54,009 nucleotides of DNA from Oscillospiraceae bacterium. Lineage in GTDB: Bacteria > Bacillota > Clostridia > Oscillospirales > Oscillospiraceae. Positions 23,541 to 31,797 of the stretch are shown one piece after another (position 1 is the first letter of the stretch; each line of letters starts with the position of its first letter). A model generated the notes under the pieces. That model saw only the letters and a program-made list of their open reading frames with translations. It had not been told where the DNA came from and made no database searches. Both the position numbers and the translations under genes were made by a program. Location: NCBI GenBank assembly GCA_017473225.1, contig JAFUMG010000003.1, forward strand, positions 1 through 54,009, in the 5' to 3' direction.

Positions 23541-25283
23541 ATGGAACAGCTGAATCAGGCCCTGGCCTTTTTCGCGGAGGCGAAGGATACCTATGTGAAC
23601 GTCTATTTCGGCATTCTGCGGTATCTGGTCCCGGCGCTGTCGCTGATCCTGCTTTGGCGGTGCTTCAAGCCCCTGCTGTGGTTCAAGCGGGAGCCGGAGA
23701 TCTGGGCCTGGCTGTACCTGAACGACGGCACCAAATATGCCATCACTCATTGGGAGAATGTCATCGGCCGCCATAAATCCAGTGATGTGTGCATCGATTT
23801 TCCCACGGTTTCCCGAAACCACGCGGTCCTGACCCGGTATGACGACGGCAGCTGGACCATTTCCGACGCAAATTCCAAGAGCGGCGTTCTGGTCAACGGC
23901 AAGCCCGTCCAGATCTGCGCCCTGGAGCCGGAGGATGTGATCACCGTGGGCGGCATTGAGATGACGCTGGTGCCCATTACGGCCCGGCAGGAGCAGCTGA
24001 TGAGCCAGCTGCGGACCAAGGCCGGCAACGGCTTCGACAGCGTGGCCAATCTGCTGTTCCTGACGCTGCTGCAGTGTCTGTTCAGCCTGGCCTTCATGAT
24101 GGGCGGCAAGGCGGAAAACTTCAGCCATATCCTGATGGGCTTCGGCGGCATCGCGGCCTGCCAGTGGCTGCTGCTGATCTTCTATGCCCTGATCCGAAGG
24201 AGCTCCTTCGAGCTGGAGACGGTGGCGTTTTTCCTGTGCACGCTGGGCATGGCGGTCATTGCCACGGTGGACCCCACTGAGACGGTCAAGCAGCTGATCG
24301 CCATGGTCATCGGTCTGGTGACCTTCATCGCGGTGGGCTGGTCCCTGCGGGATCTGGAGCGGGCCAAGAAGGTCCGGTATCTGGCCACCGCCATGGGTAT
24401 CGGCTTTCTGGTCATCACGCTGCTCTTCGGTCAGGAGTACCACGGCGCCAAAAACTGGCTGCTGATCGGCGGTTTTACCATCCAGCCCTCGGAGCTGAGC
24501 AAGCTCTGCTTCGTCTATGCCGGCGCGTCCACCATGGAGCGGATCATGAACAAGCGGAACCTGATCCTGTTCATCGGCTATTCCGTGGTGATCTGCGGCT
24601 TCCTGGCCCTGATGAATGACTTCGGCACGGCCCTGATCTTCTTCGTGGCCTTCCTGGTCATCGCCTATCTCCGCTCCGGCAGTGTGGGCACCATCGCTCT
24701 GGCCTGCACCTCCCTGGGCTTTGCCGGGGTCATCGCCATCAAGATCGCGCCCCACGCCCTGCGGCGCTTCTCCATCTGGCGGCACATCTGGGAAGACCCC
24801 TTCAATCTGGGCTATCAGCAGACCCGGGCCATCATGTGCATCGCCTCCGGCGGCCTCTTCGGACTGGGCGCCGGCCGGGGCAAGCTGAAAAATGTCTTCG
24901 CGGCGGATTCCGACCTGGCCTTCGCGTCCCTTTCCGAGGAATGGGGCCTGATCCTGGGTATTCTGGCGGTGCTTTGCGTCGTGGCCATTGCCATCTTCGC
25001 CATCCGCACCGCCGCGCTGGCCCGCAGCAGCTTTTACATCATCGGCGCCTGCACCGCCGCGGCCATCCTGCTGACCCAGGCGATTCTGAACTGCCTGGGC
25101 ACGGTGGACGTGCTGCCACTGACGGGCGTCACCTTCCCGTTCCTCAGCAACGGCGGCTCCAGCATGATCTGCGCCTGGGGACTGCTGGCCTTTATCAAGG
25201 CGGCGGACACCCGGCAGAATGCCAGCTTCGCGGTGCGATTGCTGAAGAGAAGAAAGGAGGAGCCGGATGAACAGAGTATCTAA
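23541..25283 (+). CDS. FHA domain-FtsW/RodA/SpoVE family glycosyltransferase fusion
   Basis: A 580-residue protein. One membrane helix (about residues 22-40) precedes a cytoplasmic FHA domain (about 57-150: VIGRHKSSDVCI, SRNHAVL, NSKSGVLVNG), which in other proteins reads phosphothreonine. From about 165 to 560 follows a SEDS core with about ten helices and the landmarks FTIQPSELSKL, NDFGTALIFF, QQTRAIMCIASGGLFG, LSEEWGLILG and GVTFPFLSNGGSSM. SEDS proteins polymerise peptidoglycan together with a class B PBP, and such a gene follows with a 17-base overlap. The FHA fusion suggests Ser/Thr-kinase input; no kinase gene is in the window. Confidence 0.92.
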   Translation: MEQLNQALAFFAEAKDTYVNVYFGILRYLVPALSLILLWRCFKPLLWFKREPEIWAWLYLNDGTKYAITHWENVIGRHKSSDVCIDFPTVSRNHAVLTRYDDGSWTISDANSKSGVLVNGKPVQICALEPEDVITVGGIEMTLVPITARQEQLMSQLRTKAGNGFDSVANLLFLTLLQCLFSLAFMMGGKAENFSHILMGFGGIAACQWLLLIFYALIRRSSFELETVAFFLCTLGMAVIATVDPTETVKQLIAMVIGLVTFIAVGWSLRDLERAKKVRYLATAMGIGFLVITLLFGQEYHGAKNWLLIGGFTIQPSELSKLCFVYAGASTMERIMNKRNLILFIGYSVVICGFLALMNDFGTALIFFVAFLVIAYLRSGSVGTIALACTSLGFAGVIAIKIAPHALRRFSIWRHIWEDPFNLGYQQTRAIMCIASGGLFGLGAGRGKLKNVFAADSDLAFASLSEEWGLILGILAVLCVVAIAIFAIRTAALARSSFYIIGACTAAAILLTQAILNCLGTVDVLPLTGVTFPFLSNGGSSMICAWGLLAFIKAADTRQNASFAVRLLKRRKEEPDEQSI

Positions 25284-26637
25284 CCGCGCTTCCGCGGTCT
25301 TTCTGCTGATCGTCGTCCTGCTGGGCGGCCTGGGATTCTTCCTCTATGAATACTGCACCACGGCGGACCAGTGGGTGGTCTCCGCCGGCTCACCCCATGT
25401 CTACAACAGCACCAACATCGGCTGCGGCCAGGTGGTGGACCGAAGCGGCACCATGCTGCTGGATCTGACCGCCTCCCGGGTCTATGCGGGAGATCAGACC
25501 ATCCGAAAGTCCACCCTGCACTGGCTGGGTGACCGGCAGGGCAAGATCAGCGCCCCCGCCGTGTCCCACTACGCCAGGGAAATGACCGGCTACGACCTGA
25601 TCGACGGCCTGTATTCCTACAGCGGCAATGCCGGACAGGCGGTGCTGACCCTGTCTTCTGACATCCAGAAGGTGGCGCTGGAGGCCCTGGGTGACCGGAA
25701 GGGCACCATCGGCGTCTATAATTACCAAACCGGTGAGATCCTCTGCGCCGTCACGTCACCTACCTACGATCCCGACAATGTGCCGGATATCGAGGGGGAT
25801 ACCTCCGGCGCCTATGAGGGCATCTACCTGAACCGCTTCACCCAGTCTTCCTATGTGCCGGGCTCCATCTTCAAGGTGGTCACCACCGCCGCGGCGCTGG
25901 AATCCGTGGCAGATATCCAGGAGCGGACCTTTACCTGCACCGGCTCCTATGCCTACGGAAACGACAAGGTCACCTGCGAGAAAAAGCACGGCACCCAGTC
26001 CATCCGGACGGCCCTGGCCAATTCCTGCAACTGCGCCTACGCCCAGATCGTGGAGCTGGTGGGCAAGGAGAATATGGTCAAATATGTGAAGCAGTTCAGC
26101 GTCACGGAGCCTGTGGAATTTGACGGCATCACCACCGCCAGGGGCAACTATGATGTCAGCGATGCCGCCGCAGTGGAGCTGGCCTGGAGCGGCATCGGCC
26201 AGCATACGGACCTGGTGAACCCTTGCCGCTACATGACCTTCATGGGCGCCATTGCCGGCGGCGGCACCGCCGCGGAGCCCTATCTGGTGGCCCAGGTCAG
26301 CGTGGGGGAGGAGATCACCTACACCGCTGAAACCACCATGACGGAGCGGATCATGTCCGAGGAAACCGCCGGGACCATCCGGGCCTTCATGCGCAACAAT
26401 GTGGAAGCCGTCTACGGCGCGGGCAACTTTAAGGGTCTGACGGTTTGCGCCAAGTCCGGCACCAGCCAGCTGGGCGGCGGACAGACCTCCAACGCCATGT
26501 TCGGGGGCTTCGTGACCGACGCGGAATACCCCCTGGCCTTCATTGTTGTTGTGGAAAATGGCGGATACGGCAGCTCTACCTGCGTCCCCATTCTGAGCAA
26601 GGTGCTGGCAGCGTGCAAGGCGGAATTGGACAAGTAA
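25267..26637 (+). CDS. Class B penicillin-binding protein (transpeptidase)
   Basis: A 456-residue protein with an N-terminal anchor (about residues 9-30) and a transpeptidase domain. Active-site motifs are S200-I-F-K203 (YVPGSIFK), S253-C-N255 (ANSCNCAY) and K396-S-G (CAKSGTSQ). It is short for class B because the N-terminal pedestal is small, resembling PbpA-type partners of FHA-SEDS proteins in Clostridia and Actinobacteria. SD AAAGGAGG precedes the ATG and lies within the upstream gene, which it overlaps by 17 bases, so the two form a peptidoglycan polymerase-crosslinker pair. Confidence 0.92.
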   Translation: MNRVSNRASAVFLLIVVLLGGLGFFLYEYCTTADQWVVSAGSPHVYNSTNIGCGQVVDRSGTMLLDLTASRVYAGDQTIRKSTLHWLGDRQGKISAPAVSHYAREMTGYDLIDGLYSYSGNAGQAVLTLSSDIQKVALEALGDRKGTIGVYNYQTGEILCAVTSPTYDPDNVPDIEGDTSGAYEGIYLNRFTQSSYVPGSIFKVVTTAAALESVADIQERTFTCTGSYAYGNDKVTCEKKHGTQSIRTALANSCNCAYAQIVELVGKENMVKYVKQFSVTEPVEFDGITTARGNYDVSDAAAVELAWSGIGQHTDLVNPCRYMTFMGAIAGGGTAAEPYLVAQVSVGEEITYTAETTMTERIMSEETAGTIRAFMRNNVEAVYGAGNFKGLTVCAKSGTSQLGGGQTSNAMFGGFVTDAEYPLAFIVVVENGGYGSSTCVPILSKVLAACKAELDK

Positions 26638-26704: not shown

Positions 26705-26733
26705 TTGACAAATGTCCGTCCACGAGATACAAT
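26705..26733 (+). promoter_or_regulatory. Consensus promoter for the liv leader and operon
   Basis: TTGACA (26705-26710) and TACAAT (26728-26733) are 17 bases apart. Transcription should start near 26740, just ahead of a strong SD for the leader ORF. Confidence 0.85.
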
Positions 26734-26763
26734 AGCTACAAATTCAGGAGGAGGTACATAGAA

Positions 26764-26922
26764 ATGGCTGATCGGTTTGTTTCCGCATCCCGGTATACCC
26801 ACTGCTGCGCCGCTTCTGCAGCAGCATGTACCTCTGCGCGAATTCGCCCGGTAATGGACACTATCATTGCGGTAGTGTCCATTTTCGTCATTATCCTGCG
26901 AGTATGCGGAGGAATGAAGTAA
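26764..26922 (+). CDS. Putative leader peptide of the liv operon (Ile/Val-rich)
   Basis: A 52-codon frame preceded by GGAGGAGG nine bases before its ATG and located between a consensus promoter and the livK terminator hairpin. The first half contains two adjacent Cys codons (RYTHCCAASAAACT). The second half, DTIIAVVSIFVIILRV, contains ten Ile/Val/Leu codons in 16. The stop codon TAA forms part of the 5' arm of a predicted antiterminator. This is the layout of an attenuation leader peptide controlled by branched-chain aminoacyl-tRNA supply. An alternative is a real small membrane peptide, since the same stretch could be a helix. Confidence 0.6.
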   Translation: MADRFVSASRYTHCCAASAAACTSARIRPVMDTIIAVVSIFVIILRVCGGMK

Positions 26923-26975
26923 CCGGGATTCAGGATGTATGAAGAAGCGGTTACGAAATGCGTAGCCGCTTTTTT
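26853..26975 (+). promoter_or_regulatory. Transcription attenuator upstream of livK
   Basis: Three hairpins are visible. Hairpin 1: AATGGACACTA (26853-26863) with TAGTGTCCATT (26873-26883), a perfect 11-bp stem inside the leader ORF. Antiterminator: GTAACCG (26919-26925, containing the leader stop codon) with CGGTTAC (26948-26954), perfect 7 bp. Terminator: AAGCGGTTACG (26945-26955) with CGTAGCCGCTT (26961-26971), 11 bp with one G-U, loop AAATG, then six T residues. Antiterminator and terminator share 26948-26954 and exclude each other. The livK SD and start lie 20-30 bases beyond. Confidence 0.7.
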
Positions 26976-27002
26976 ATAGAAAAGGGAAAAGGAGACTTAC
27001 TT

Positions 27003-28151
27003 ATGAAAAAGGTATTTGCAATCGTTTTGGCAGCCGCGATGATCGCTGCCATGTTCGCGGGCTGCGGTTCCGGCAGCTCTGCCGACGCCGGTACTATCAA
27101 GGTCGGCATGACCGGCCCTCTGACCGGCGGCGCTGCCGTTTACGGCACTGCTGTTGAGGCTGGCATGAAGATCGCTGTGGAAGAGATCAACGCCGCCGCT
27201 GGCGACAGCGGTCTGAAGATTGAGTTCAAGTCCGCCGACGATGAGCACGACGGCGAGAAGGCCCTGAACGCCTACAACACCCTGAAGGACTGGGGTATGC
27301 AGTTCTTCGCGGGCTGCGTGACCACCGCCCCCTGCCTGTCTGTCGCTCCTCAGGCCGTTGAGGACCAGGTCTTCATGATGACCCCCTCCGGCTCTTCCGA
27401 GAAGATCGCCAACACCGGCTCCAACATCTTCCAGATGTGCTTCACCGACCCCAACCAGGGCGCCAACGCCGCTCTGCTGGTTGCTGAGAAGGAAATGGCC
27501 ACCAACATCGGCATCATCTACGACTCCTCCGACGACTACTCCAAGGGTCTGGTCGACGGCTTCAAGACCAAGGGCGCTGAGCTGGGTCTGAACATCGTCT
27601 GCGAGACTTCCTTCACCTCCGACAACAAGAGCGACCTGTCCACTCAGGTCACCCAGTGCAAGGACGCCGGCTGTGACTTCGTGTTCCTGCCTTTCTATGC
27701 CACCGAGGCCGCTCAGGTCCTGACCTACGCCAACAAGATCGGCTATGAGCCCACCTTCTTCGGCTGCGACGGCATGGACGGCGTTCTGACCATCGACGGC
27801 TTCGACACCGCTCTGGCTGAGGGCCTGGTCCTGATGACCCCCTTCAACCCCGACGCTGAAGAGACCCAGGACTTCGTCAGCAAGTACAAGGACATGATGG
27901 ACGGCGTGGTTCCCAACCAGTTCGCCGCTGACGGCTACGATGTCATCTACTCCATCTACAACGCCTGCGTCGCCACCGGCATCGACGGCACCACTTCCGC
28001 CGCTGACGCCTGCGCCAAGCTGGAAGAGTACTTCGCTACCTACACCTTCGACGGTCTGACCGGTTCCGGCATGACCTGGGACGCAGCCGGCATGATCTCC
28101 AAGGTCCCCGCCGCTGTGATCATCGAGAACGGCAAGTACGTCGCATTCTAA
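27003..28151 (+). CDS. livK: Branched-chain amino acid ABC transporter substrate-binding lipoprotein
   Basis: A 382-residue periplasmic-binding-protein-type lipoprotein. The signal MKKVFAIVLAAAMIAAMFAGC ends in lipobox FAGC. The mature part starts IKVGMTGPLTGGAAVYGTAVEAGMKIAVEEIN, typical of the Leu/Ile/Val-binding family (peripla_BP_6), and continues with KALNAYNTLKDWGMQFFAGC and MTPSGSSEKIA. It should capture branched-chain amino acids for the LivHMGF complex encoded next. SD AAAAGGAG lies upstream. Codon use is strongly biased, as expected for an abundant binding protein. It is controlled by the upstream attenuator, and a stable hairpin follows the gene. Confidence 0.94.
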   Translation: MKKVFAIVLAAAMIAAMFAGCGSGSSADAGTIKVGMTGPLTGGAAVYGTAVEAGMKIAVEEINAAAGDSGLKIEFKSADDEHDGEKALNAYNTLKDWGMQFFAGCVTTAPCLSVAPQAVEDQVFMMTPSGSSEKIANTGSNIFQMCFTDPNQGANAALLVAEKEMATNIGIIYDSSDDYSKGLVDGFKTKGAELGLNIVCETSFTSDNKSDLSTQVTQCKDAGCDFVFLPFYATEAAQVLTYANKIGYEPTFFGCDGMDGVLTIDGFDTALAEGLVLMTPFNPDAEETQDFVSKYKDMMDGVVPNQFAADGYDVIYSIYNACVATGIDGTTSAADACAKLEEYFATYTFDGLTGSGMTWDAAGMISKVPAAVIIENGKYVAF

Positions 28152-28283: not shown

Positions 28284-29165
28284 ATGCAAATCATACAGTA
28301 TCTGATCAACGGCATCAGCATCGGCTCCGTGTACGCGATCATCGCCCTGGGCTATACCATGGTCTACGGCATTGCCAAGATGCTGAACTTTGCCCACGGT
28401 GACGTTATCATGGTGGGCGCCTATATTTCCTTCTGTGTCACCAATTACCTGGGGCTGCCCGCCATTGTGTCCATCATCGCGGCTATGGCGGTGTGCACGG
28501 TCCTGGGCATCATCATTGAGAAGCTGGCCTATAAGCCCCTGCGGGGCACCTCCAGCCTGGCGGTCCTGATCACCGCCATCGGCGTCAGCTATTTCCTGCA
28601 GAACGCGGCCCAGCTGATCTGGGGCACCGCACCCAAGAATTTCACCAGCATCGTGACCTTCAAGCCCTTCTCCTTCGCGGACGGCGCGCTGGTCATCACC
28701 GGCGAGGTGATCATCACCATTGCCGCTTCCGTCCTGATCATGGTGGGCCTGACCTTGTTCACCGGCAAGACCCGGATGGGCAAGGCCATGCGTGCCGTGT
28801 CGGAGGACCGGGACGCCGCTCAGCTGATGGGCATCAATGTCAATCAGACCATTTCCATGACCTTCGCCATCGGCTCCGCCCTGGCTGCCATCGCCGGCGT
28901 GCTGCTGTGCTCCACGGTCCCGACTCTGCAGCCCACCACCGGCTCCATGCCCGGCATCCGGGCCTTTACCGCCGCGGTCATCGGCGGCATTGGCTCCATC
29001 CCCGGCGCCATGCTGGGCGGCATCCTGCTGGGCATCATTGAGACCTTCAGCAAGAAGTATATTTCCACCGAGTTCAGCGACGCCATCGTCTTCGCTGTGT
29101 TGATTCTGATCCTGCTTGTGAAGCCCACGGGACTTCTGGGCAAGCAGGTCCAGGAGAAAGTGTGA
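28284..29165 (+). CDS. livH: Branched-chain amino acid ABC transporter permease LivH
   Basis: A 293-residue membrane protein with about eight helices. It begins IQYLINGISIGSVYAIIALGYTMVYGIAKMLNFAHGD, the signature of the LivH family, and contains RMGKAMRAVSEDRDAAQLMGIN, the cytoplasmic coupling loop that contacts the ATPases. LivH and LivM form the transmembrane channel. AGAGAGG precedes the ATG. It is followed ten bases later by livM. Confidence 0.95.
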   Translation: MQIIQYLINGISIGSVYAIIALGYTMVYGIAKMLNFAHGDVIMVGAYISFCVTNYLGLPAIVSIIAAMAVCTVLGIIIEKLAYKPLRGTSSLAVLITAIGVSYFLQNAAQLIWGTAPKNFTSIVTFKPFSFADGALVITGEVIITIAASVLIMVGLTLFTGKTRMGKAMRAVSEDRDAAQLMGINVNQTISMTFAIGSALAAIAGVLLCSTVPTLQPTTGSMPGIRAFTAAVIGGIGSIPGAMLGGILLGIIETFSKKYISTEFSDAIVFAVLILILLVKPTGLLGKQVQEKV

Positions 29166-29175
29166 GGTGCGGGCT

Positions 29176-30252
29176 ATGAAGAAACTCTGGAACAACAAAA
29201 CCACCCGGACCAACCTGACGACTTATCTGGTGGTCACTGTTGCCTTCGTCGTCATGCAGCTGATGTCCTCCTTTGGCCAGCTGGGCAGCGCCATGAAGGG
29301 TTATCTGATCCCTGTCTGCGCCTATATCGTCATGGCGGTCAGCCTGAACCTGCTGGTCGGCGTCTGCGGTGAGCTGAGCCTGGGCCACGCGGGCTTCATG
29401 GGCATCGGCGCCTTTACCGGCATCGTCATCGCCGCGCTGCTGCAGGACGCGATCCCCAATGATACGCTCCTGCTGGTGGTCGCCATGTTTGCCGGCGGCA
29501 TCATGGCCGGTATCTTCGGCTTCCTGATCGGCATTCCCGCGCTGCGCCTGCGGGGCGACTACCTGGCCATTGTTACTCTGGCATTCGGCGAGATCCTGAA
29601 GAACATCTTCAGCAACCTCTATGTGGGTCTGGATTCCGAGGGCCTGCATATGGCCGTCAGCACCGGCAAGGTTCAGCTGCTCGAAGGCGGCAGAATGATC
29701 CTGGACGGCCCCGTGGGTGCCACCGGCATCACCAAGCTGTCCACCTTCCCCATGGGCTTCGTGCTGATCCTGTTCACCTTGTTTGTGGTGCTGAACCTGA
29801 TCAATTCCAAGGAGGGCCGGGCCATCAAGGCGGTGCGTGACAACCGGATCGCTACCGAATCCGTTGGCATCAACGTCACCGCCTTCCGTATGAAGGCCTT
29901 TGTGGTCTCCGCCTTCCTGGCCGGCATGGCGGGCACTCTGTTCGGCCTGAATTTCTCCTCCCTGCAGGCGTCCAAGTTCAATTTCAACGCGTCCATCAAC
30001 GTGCTGGTCTTCGTGGTCCTGGGCGGCATGGGCAATATCCTGGGCTCCGTCATTTCCACGGCGGTGCTGTATATCCTGCCTGAGGCCATGCGTGGTCTGG
30101 ATGACCTGCGTATGATCCTCTACGCGGTGGTCCTGATCATCGTGATGCTGTTCACCTGGTCTCCCAGCGTGAAGAACGCCGTTCAGAGCGTCACCGCGTC
30201 GGTTCAGGAGAAGCTGAGAAAAAACAAGAAGGAGGCCGTGAACAATGAATGA
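29176..30252 (+). CDS. livM: Branched-chain amino acid ABC transporter permease LivM
   Basis: A 358-residue membrane protein, the second permease. Family landmarks: YIVMAVSLNLLVGVCGELSLGHAGFMGIGAF, PALRLRGDYLAIVTLAFGEI, and the coupling loop GRAIKAVRDNRIATESVGIN. ATG 29176 has GAGG eight bases upstream; a GTG three codons earlier is less likely. The Lys-rich C-terminus overlaps the livG start by eight bases. Confidence 0.94.
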   Translation: MKKLWNNKTTRTNLTTYLVVTVAFVVMQLMSSFGQLGSAMKGYLIPVCAYIVMAVSLNLLVGVCGELSLGHAGFMGIGAFTGIVIAALLQDAIPNDTLLLVVAMFAGGIMAGIFGFLIGIPALRLRGDYLAIVTLAFGEILKNIFSNLYVGLDSEGLHMAVSTGKVQLLEGGRMILDGPVGATGITKLSTFPMGFVLILFTLFVVLNLINSKEGRAIKAVRDNRIATESVGINVTAFRMKAFVVSAFLAGMAGTLFGLNFSSLQASKFNFNASINVLVFVVLGGMGNILGSVISTAVLYILPEAMRGLDDLRMILYAVVLIIVMLFTWSPSVKNAVQSVTASVQEKLRKNKKEAVNNE

Positions 30253-31093
30253 GTATTCCAGAAAAATGATCAAGGTCTCCAGCGTCAACCTGTTCCGTGA
30301 GCAGGACGCGGGCAAGCCCCCGGTTCTGGATGTCCGGAATCTGGGCATCGACTTTGGCGGCCTGACGGCTGTGGACGGCTTCAATATGACCATCGGTCCC
30401 ACGGAGATCTCCGGCTTGATCGGCCCCAACGGCGCCGGCAAGACCACCATTTTCAATCTGCTGACCAGCGTTTACCAGCCCACCCGCGGCTCCATCCTGC
30501 TGAAGGGCATCGATACAAAGGGCATGAACACTGCCAAGGTCAACAAGCTGGGCATCGCCCGTACCTTCCAGAATATCCGCCTGTTCAACGACATGACCGC
30601 GCTGGATAATGTCAAGGTGGGTATGCACAATGAGATCAAGTGCTCCTTCCTGGCATCCTTGCTGCATCTGCCTTCCTACTATAAGTCCGAGAAGAAGGCC
30701 AATGAGAAGGCCATGGAGCTGCTGGACTTTATGGGTCTGGCGGATATCGCCGATCAGAAGGCGGGCAGCCTGCCCTATGGTGTCCAGCGCCGTCTGGAGA
30801 TCTGCCGGGCCCTGGCATCCAATCCCGCCATCATCCTGCTGGATGAGCCCGCCGCGGGCATGAACCCCAGCGAGACCGCCGAGCTGATGCATCAGATCCG
30901 CCGGATCCGGGATACCTTCCAGATCGCCATTTTCCTGATCGAGCACGACATGAACCTGGTCATGAACGTCTGCGAGGGCATCGTGGTGGTCAACTACGGC
31001 AAGATCATCGCCAAGGGCACCCCCGAGGAGATCAAGAACAATCCCGCGGTGATCGAGGCATACCTTGGTAAGAAGAAGGAGGCTGACGCATGA
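30245..31093 (+). CDS. livG: Branched-chain amino acid ABC transporter ATPase LivG
   Basis: A 282-residue ATPase. Walker A is GPNGAGKTT, the Q-loop lies in ARTFQNIRLF, Walker B is AIILLDEPAAGMN, and the switch His is in LIEHDMNLVM. The signature motif reads LPYGVQRRLEI instead of the canonical LSGGQ, which is typical for LivG. About 25 N-terminal residues precede the usual start of the domain. It overlaps livM (8 bases) and livF (4 bases). Confidence 0.94.
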   Translation: MNEYSRKMIKVSSVNLFREQDAGKPPVLDVRNLGIDFGGLTAVDGFNMTIGPTEISGLIGPNGAGKTTIFNLLTSVYQPTRGSILLKGIDTKGMNTAKVNKLGIARTFQNIRLFNDMTALDNVKVGMHNEIKCSFLASLLHLPSYYKSEKKANEKAMELLDFMGLADIADQKAGSLPYGVQRRLEICRALASNPAIILLDEPAAGMNPSETAELMHQIRRIRDTFQIAIFLIEHDMNLVMNVCEGIVVVNYGKIIAKGTPEEIKNNPAVIEAYLGKKKEADA

Positions 31094-31797
31094 GTACGAT
31101 GCTGAAAATTGATGATATTCATGTGTACTACGGCGCCATCCACGCCATCAAGGGTGTTTCCTTTGAAGTCGGCGAGGGTGAGATCGTGGCCCTGATCGGC
31201 GCCAACGGCGCCGGTAAGAGTACCATCCTGAAGACGGTCTCCGGCCTGATGCATCCCCGCACGGGTAAGATCGAGTTTATGGATCAGGACATTACCCACA
31301 TGGATGCTTATAAGCTGCTGCGCCATGGTCTGGCCCATGTTCCCGAAGGGCGGCGGATATTCCTGCAGATGACCGTCCAGGAGAATCTGGAAATGGGCGC
31401 CTATATCCGCAAGGACGTTTCCAAGGCGGATCTGGATATGGTGTTCAATTATTTCCCCCGGCTGAAGGAGCGGCGCAAGCAGATCGCCGGCACCCTGTCC
31501 GGCGGCGAGCAGCAGATGCTGGCCATGTCCCGGGCCCTGATGAGCCACCCCAAGCTGATGATGCTGGATGAGCCCTCCATGGGCCTGGCCCCCATCCTGG
31601 TGGACCAGATCTTCGACATCATCAAGCAGCTCCACAAGGACGGCACCACCATTCTTCTGGTGGAGCAGAACGCCAGCAAGGCGCTGGAGATCGCGGACCG
31701 GGCTTACGTTCTGGAGACCGGCAATATCACCCTCTCCGGCACCGGCCGGGAGCTTGCCCAGTCCGACGAGGTCAAAAAGGCCTATTTGGGCGGCTGA
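31090..31797 (+). CDS. livF: Branched-chain amino acid ABC transporter ATPase LivF
   Basis: A 235-residue ATPase, partner of LivG. Walker A GANGAGKST, the characteristic HVPEGRRIFLQMTVQENLEMG segment, signature LSGGEQQML, Walker B LMMLDEPSMGLAP and switch His region replaced by LLVEQNASKALE, all standard for LivF. It ends the operon and is followed 14 bases later by a strong terminator. Confidence 0.95.
   Translation: MSTMLKIDDIHVYYGAIHAIKGVSFEVGEGEIVALIGANGAGKSTILKTVSGLMHPRTGKIEFMDQDITHMDAYKLLRHGLAHVPEGRRIFLQMTVQENLEMGAYIRKDVSKADLDMVFNYFPRLKERRKQIAGTLSGGEQQMLAMSRALMSHPKLMMLDEPSMGLAPILVDQIFDIIKQLHKDGTTILLVEQNASKALEIADRAYVLETGNITLSGTGRELAQSDEVKKAYLGG

Follow-up and report, generated by a model that had tools for sequence, protein, structure and literature searches.

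The region that separates livK (27003) from a gene whose product has a Pfam Transpeptidase domain (25267-26637) raises the question of how the livKHMGF operon downstream is controlled in the window, i.e. the whole 54,009-nucleotide stretch of DNA that was analysed. A sequence-only reading had proposed a ribosome-mediated attenuator, and comparison across relatives supports this proposal; we consider it very probable that a ribosome-mediated transcription attenuator controls the operon. The features on which the discussion rests are as follows.

26705..26733, plus strand: sigma-70-type promoter, TTGACA-17 nt-TACAAT, read directly from the sequence (-35 at 26705-26710, -10 at 26728-26733)
26741..26759, plus strand: 5' strand of helix P1, AATTC (26741-26745) and GAGGTACAT (26751-26759), overlapping the leader Shine-Dalgarno sequence (SD) GGAGG at 26750-26754
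26764..26922, plus strand: leader peptide ORF of 52 codons and a TAA stop (ATG at 26764, TAA at 26920-26922), with a homologous SD-led ORF in relatives
26802..26824, plus strand: hairpin H2 (CTGCTGC/GCAGCAG), enclosed by P1; a predicted fold, seen by eye again in relatives
26826..26844, plus strand: 3' strand of P1, the anti-SD ATGTACCTC (26826-26834) and GAATT (26840-26844), within the leader ORF
26855..26881, plus strand: in-ORF hairpin H3 at codons D-T...V-S, 11 bp, or 13 with flanking A-U pairs; from the fold and the alignment
26919..26954, plus strand: antiterminator GTAACCG (26919-26925, stop codon included) / CGGTTAC (26948-26954), with an inner helix TTCA (26929-26932) / TGAA (26940-26943); from the alignment and the predicted nascent fold
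26945..26975, plus strand: intrinsic terminator AAGCGGTTACG / CGTAGCCGCTT and T6 (arms 26945-26955 and 26961-26971, T6 at 26970-26975)
27003..28151, plus strand: livK, substrate-binding protein (Pfam Peripla_BP_6, E 2.5e-46; ATG at 27003)
28284..31797, plus strand: livH, livM, livG and livF (Pfam BPD_transp_2 twice, ABC_tran twice, BCA_ABC_TP_C in one ATPase)

Most of what the sequence-only reading had described at this locus is found as it was given: the consensus promoter, the SD-led 52-codon ORF (exact to the base), the 11-bp hairpin inside it, the positions of the GTAACCG with the stop codon and of its partner CGGTTAC, the 11-bp terminator with six T residues ahead of livK, and the importer genes livK, livH, livM, livG and livF, whose Pfam domain set supports a LIV-type importer. 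It had placed ten Ile/Val/Leu codons among 16; the ten codons are there, but they lie in a denser stretch of 14 codons (26863-26904). To this description we add an SD/anti-SD helix enclosing a GC-rich hairpin (P1 and H2), the inner helix of the antiterminator, a codon bias and the conservation of H3.

At E 1e-40, 61 of 101 genomes of the genus have a LivK match; the best 30 of the 61 loci were fetched, of which 29 could be assessed since L020 starts at a contig edge. From the matches ranked 31-61, that of G135 was included as well, and G346 came from the family-wide searches. The leader is present at 26 of the 29 assessable loci and absent at three (L014, L033 and L034). These three are natural variants that retain the promoter while the leader ORF is gone; the -35 pattern is found upstream of livK in 29 of the 30 loci, including these, the thirtieth (L020) being cut by the contig end. 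The leader ORFs of the genus are SD-led, 40-55 codons long and carry the Ile/Val/Leu run at their end, and the peptide has a Cys/Ala/Ser-rich first half, a SARI-like motif, D-T/A..V-S at H3 and an ILV-rich tail. TAA, TAG and TGA all occur as stop codons, the stop codon participates in pairing, and the distance from it to the T run is 50-63 nt. The sequence-only reading had expected the Ile/Val run, the stop-codon position and covariation of both hairpins to recur in relatives, and a lack of conservation of the leader codons or alternative pairings to speak against it. The run and the stop position are both kept in the genus, covariation is found in both hairpins and is weaker in the antiterminator than in the terminator, and the adverse outcome did not occur. 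A protein search with the 22-residue leader tail was less useful, giving matches in 8 of 400 family genomes at E of at most 1, of which only the window is convincing (E 4e-9; the other seven lie at E 0.06-0.65).

Pairing was counted over 26 aligned genus leaders (alignment A2), with partners slid by 1-3 columns and 500 column shuffles as controls. The terminator is paired in 93.7% of cells, as against 34-67% when slid, and five of its 11 pairs have changed on both sides, a number reached by one of the 500 shuffles; its cells paired and its covariation score are each reached by none. The antiterminator is paired in 85.9% of cells (28-43% when slid) with three pairs changed on both sides, and the shuffles reach this number in 31 of 500 cases, the cells paired in 31, the covariation score in 14 and the count of both-sides-changed cells in 8. 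Because the antiterminator and the terminator have a strand in common, three strands change together, for example GTAACCG/CGGTTAC versus GTAGCCG/CGGCTGC. The stop codon and the antiterminator duplex overlap in 18 of 28 genus leaders, and in nine the duplex starts 4-9 nt past the stop. Judged leader by leader, no more than 5% of shuffles equal the duplex in 12 of the 28, and L012 has its best duplex at another place. P1, which joins the leader SD to codons about 20 downstream in the leader's own coding sequence, is paired in 78.4% of cells as against 31-50% when slid, a value reached by none of the 500 shuffles, but the number of its pairs changed on both sides (five) is matched by 337 of them. 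Of 55 candidate leaders, 28 from the genus and 27 others, 54 have a terminator downstream of the ORF. When synonymous codons are permuted inside each leader, the fold becomes weaker (mean z -2.6, negative in 27 of 28); leaders are not more stable than versions with synonymous codons drawn from gene usage (mean z -0.33), and the composition-matched permutation was used because the gene-usage draw is confounded by G+C.

H3 is paired in 95.1% of cells among the 26 leaders, one of which (L027) bears the leader without the H3 sequence, and both of its arms are nearly invariant in sequence, as would also be expected of a DNA operator for a dimeric regulator to which an attenuator would be secondary. 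However, the spacing of the arms shifts by 3 nt between relatives, which would turn one half-site by about 100 degrees on DNA while keeping the reading frame, and both arms are changed in other genera, to GGACGCC/GGCGTCC in L061 and GGACACC/GGTGTCC in L047; an operator is therefore very improbable. An H3-pattern scan of genome contigs returned 56 stretches, of which 26 are this leader, 25 of them with a LivK match at most 500 bases away and one (L102) with a livK-like gene start seen by eye; the other 30 stretches look unrelated.

The behaviour of the switch was examined in predicted folds of 28 genus leaders. When the nascent RNA ends at the strand shared by the two hairpins, this strand is predicted to pair with the stop-proximal sequence in all 28, its partner in L029 lying just past the usual arm, and the nascent antiterminator fold has a mean of -14.5 kcal/mol. 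The inner helices vary among leaders (TTCA/TGAA, TTTTCC/GGGAAA, CCATA/TATGG), and in the window the antiterminator and terminator have -12.9 and -17.8 kcal/mol, respectively. With the ribosome stalled, the shared strand is computed to be held upstream with a mean probability of 0.80, whereas with the ribosome at the stop codon this probability is 0.41, 0.25 and 0.15 when 12, 15 and 18 nt are masked, respectively; it is still at least 0.5 in 11 of 28 leaders with 12 nt masked and in five (L012, L017, L018, L021 and L027) with 15 nt masked. For an untranslated leader folded from the predicted transcript start the value is 0.73 on average and at least 0.5 in 25 of 28. Untranslated genus leaders are thus predicted to read through rather than terminate in these 25, and therefore translation to the stop codon should switch the operon off. 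These folds do not predict for the genus leaders a strand-1 protector giving termination without translation, as in the textbook enteric form; in another genus a strand-1 hairpin of 6 bp (L043 and L045) or 4 bp (L046 and L057) is predicted. In computational terms, the leader has an SD-led ORF, a cognate codon run, a terminator before the gene and an antiterminator exclusive with it, which a stalled ribosome is predicted to expose and a ribosome at the stop codon to mask.

From this arrangement we infer how the attenuator would work. RNA polymerase would transcribe the leader with a ribosome translating concurrently. When charged Ile, Val and Leu tRNAs are ample, the ribosome would reach the stop codon and cover the 5' arm of the antiterminator, so that the terminator forms and transcription ends near 26975. 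A shortage of any one of these tRNAs would stall the ribosome within the codon run and leave the antiterminator arm free to capture the would-be 5' arm of the terminator, upon which polymerase would continue into livK. H3 probably pauses the polymerase and lets the ribosome catch up ahead of most of the regulatory codons, and P1 would shut the leader SD once the coding strand has emerged, so that probably only an early ribosome decides. The pairing of P1 with the leader SD region in most relatives, together with the read-through predicted for untranslated leaders in 25 of 28, would equally suit a control exerted by initiation of leader translation, with P1 open or closed, and by the general supply of ribosomes instead of by ILV codons. 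Such a scheme leaves the ILV run, the codon bias and the match between leader residues and importer unexplained, and we consider it unlikely.

The codons themselves argue for the attenuator. Post-H3 codons of the 28 genus leaders were compared with a reference for which every one of the 30 livK loci contributed its longest open frame. GTA makes up 23 of 51 Val codons (39 of 882 in the reference), ATT 45 of 58 Ile codons (164 of 574), CTA six of 82 Leu codons (1 of 781) and CGA 14 of 31 Arg codons (5 of 102), counts that are not independent, the leaders being related to one another. Codon usage is relaxed for Thr/Pro/Gly and Arg as well, so part of the bias is not specific to ILV. PMC1183508 holds the choice of codon to be important for how sensitively an attenuator responds. 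The set sensed by the leader is probably Ile, Val and Leu jointly, with a bias to GTA and ATT. The element CTGCGAGTA is found at 26896-26904, and GTACGAATT / CTGCGAATT and their kin occupy the matching place in relatives; V/L-R-I/V codons with CGA after H3 recur across genera (L019, L028, L035, L037, L043, L045, L046 and L057), and a search for a pairing partner that would explain the CGA-bearing GTACGAATT-type element found none.

A hydrophobic C-terminal half could also belong to a genuine small membrane protein acting together with the importer, in which case the terminator would be an ordinary one. The conserved residues near D-T/A..V-S would fit such a protein, as would the ORFs of 81-87 codons with two hydrophobic stretches that are seen in some genera (L047, L061, L148 and L181). 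In the genus this half is, however, selectively rich in Ile, Leu and Val (44.5%, with Phe+Met+Gly+Trp at 7.9% and charged residues at 13.3%) when compared with the hydrophobic segments of LivH/LivM (39.0%, 22.0% and 5.6%, respectively), i.e. it has less Phe, Met and Gly and more charge. Moreover, the ORF varies in length from 40 to 55 codons, its synonymous positions are constrained by structure, the stop codon lies within or beside the antiterminator arm in 27 of 28 leaders, and the leader residues change with the type of importer. A working small protein is hence distinctly unlikely, and the attenuator remains our preferred reading.

Across the family, 256 of 400 genomes have a LivK match at E 1e-30. 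We took 69 loci and dropped six before counting, namely L150 and L185 (no livK start), L125 and L126 (same genus) and L129 and L189 (short upstream sequence), which left 63 loci from 57 other genera. An ILV leader was defined as an SD-led ORF with at least nine Ile/Val/Leu in 16 residues that ends 60-180 nt before livK. Such leaders precede livK at 14 of the 63 loci (13 of the 57 genera), compared with a mean of 0.1 of 63 (maximum 1) in 20 dinucleotide shuffles and none on the reverse strand; the remaining 49 loci have no ILV leader at the threshold of nine. Antiterminator duplexes outside the genus are mostly no better than those of shuffles, so no family-wide antiterminator is claimed. Leaders of genus g97 (four loci) have the same layout with a sequence different from that of the window's genus, the stop-proximal arm being GGCAAA followed by G or A and the terminator arm containing CTTTGC. 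Model R1 matched 37 of 400 family genomes at E 0.01, and among the 18 of 38 places examined, 13 have a LivK homologue downstream (two of these 13 belong to the genus), one lies among other liv genes (L059) and four are not ahead of LivK (L049, L050, L058 and L060). In the order, R1 matched three of 216 genomes at 1e-4, the two besides the window (L248 and L249) having no liv homologue. Some relatives thus appear, by sequence comparison, to have versions of the switch ahead of matching importers.

The R1 match L049 led to a Phe-rich leader ahead of a PF04392 gene. This protein was sought in 250 genomes of the family, and its best 30 loci, one of them that of the query, were searched for FWY leaders, defined as SD-led ORFs with at least five Phe/Tyr/Trp in 14 residues. 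Phe/Tyr-rich leaders precede the PF04392 genes at eight of 30 loci (L218, L225, L230, L234, L236, L240, L243 and L247), against 0.05 in shuffles and one on the reverse strand. FWY ORFs are found ahead of LivK at one of 63 loci and ILV ORFs ahead of PF04392 genes at none of 30; with ILV before LivK and FWY before PF04392 genes, the leader residues follow the importer type. The Phe/Tyr-rich leaders are probable aromatic amino-acid attenuators. Several of them have an R-[FY]..A-G motif that resembles an in-ORF hairpin. A T-box was given by Rfam in two of six PF04392 loci, one of which is the copy in the window's own genome (L219:2620-2855, contig 34), ahead of the PF04392-type gene; L218, from another genus, has a homologue 82-83% identical to the L219 protein with a Phe-rich leader instead of the T-box. 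We take TrpX to be a member of the PF04392 family. According to PMC9382623, trpX is part of a tryptophan uptake system under T-box control.

The sequence-only reading had named T-boxes and CodY as the usual regulators of such transporters in Clostridia. T-boxes are indeed common in the genus, being present in all 41 same-genus genomes searched (above cut-off in 40) with 11 matches in the window's own genome, whereas CodY (PF06018) is found in none of the 41. Fifteen of these genomes have a completeness of 90% or more and a contamination of 5% or less, and the control genomes of Bacillus subtilis and Lactococcus lactis gave matches. A T-box or metabolite riboswitch in the leader itself, beside which the ORF would be fortuitous, is exceedingly improbable in spite of this abundance and of the T-box ahead of the genome's own PF04392-type importer gene (L219). 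The leader matches no Rfam family at gathering score, the T-box family RF00230 has no match in the window, and the SD-led ORF persists at 26 of 29 loci, its stop codon taking three forms. Five sub-threshold Rfam matches at a relaxed E-value in the leader were taken as chance, and none of them is a T-box. Over the entire window only one element reaches an Rfam gathering score, a tRNA-Arg (cct) at 25-101 on the minus strand.

KARI scores above the Pfam cut-off in 22 of 41 genus genomes and below E 1e-40 in only ten, the remaining matches (20-27 bits) probably being other proteins; none is found in the window's own genome, which is 78.6% complete. The leader is not seen to be tied to loss of KARI, as six of seven strong-KARI genomes with a livK locus examined have it, G411 being the one without. 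A T-box at gathering score lies ahead of ilv-leu genes in two of four KARI-bearing loci examined (leuA, ilvB and ilvN are supported by Pfam in L214), so that tRNA charging may be sensed differently for synthesis than for uptake in genomes that have both.

On balance, we lean towards the view that the family has a class of importer attenuators whose codons match the importer that they precede, which bear hairpins inside the ORF and, in the genus, also an SD-closing helix and on-by-default logic, in which uptake is placed under tRNA-charging control where CodY is not found and branched-chain amino acid (BCAA) synthesis is often lacking, and which exchanges with T-boxes. If so, ribosome-mediated attenuation would reach beyond biosynthesis to the operons of ABC importers in a large group of gut Clostridia, one in which CodY was not found in the 41 searched genomes and many species may rely on imported BCAAs, and leader codons would hint at what an unannotated importer carries. 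That the leaders of the genus are predicted to be on by default, unlike those with a predicted protecting hairpin (L043 and L045), poses a directly testable mechanistic question, and the T-box/leader difference at closely related importer genes would be a clean case of tRNA-charging sensors replacing one another.

The enteric ilvL, leuL, trpL and hisL leaders share regulatory codons and a mutually exclusive antiterminator and terminator with the livK leader, but they have a short ORF and a 1:2 hairpin that leads to termination without translation, and they serve biosynthesis operons. In older work on E. coli, liv control reportedly involves tRNA-Leu and Rho, and a livK RNA motif is said to occur in Pseudomonadales, on which our literature search found nothing. 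The same search, which covered mostly papers outside subscription journals, found no report of a LIV importer controlled by a leader-peptide attenuator, or of any such attenuator in this group of bacteria. In Firmicutes, biosynthesis genes under BCAA leader attenuators are already known (PMC5864092, PMC5794164). The Corynebacterium ilvB-II, the ilvB-OMG and the Leptospira ilvB motifs likewise have a conserved BCAA-rich uORF in a structured leader, but lie upstream of ilvB in other lineages (PMC10272879). The Staphylococcus aureus ilv-leu attenuator peptide has a similar Ile/Leu-rich leader with a terminator 52 nt past the stop codon, but precedes a biosynthesis operon, and its modelled antiterminator pairs with the poly-U tail of the terminator (PMC5794164). 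T-box importers of Firmicutes, BCAA symporters included, resemble the livK leader in that tRNA charging controls uptake, but they do so by direct tRNA binding with no leader peptide (PMC2494555). Rli60 of Listeria monocytogenes is an ilv-leu attenuator from a Gram-positive bacterium with a BCAA-rich leader peptide and hairpin energies (antiterminator -10.3, terminator -17.1 kcal/mol) similar to those of the livK leader, but it controls biosynthesis, together with CodY (PMC5864092). Its start-codon and SD mutants are called super-attenuators (PMC5864092), whereas the livK leader is predicted to read through when it is not translated.
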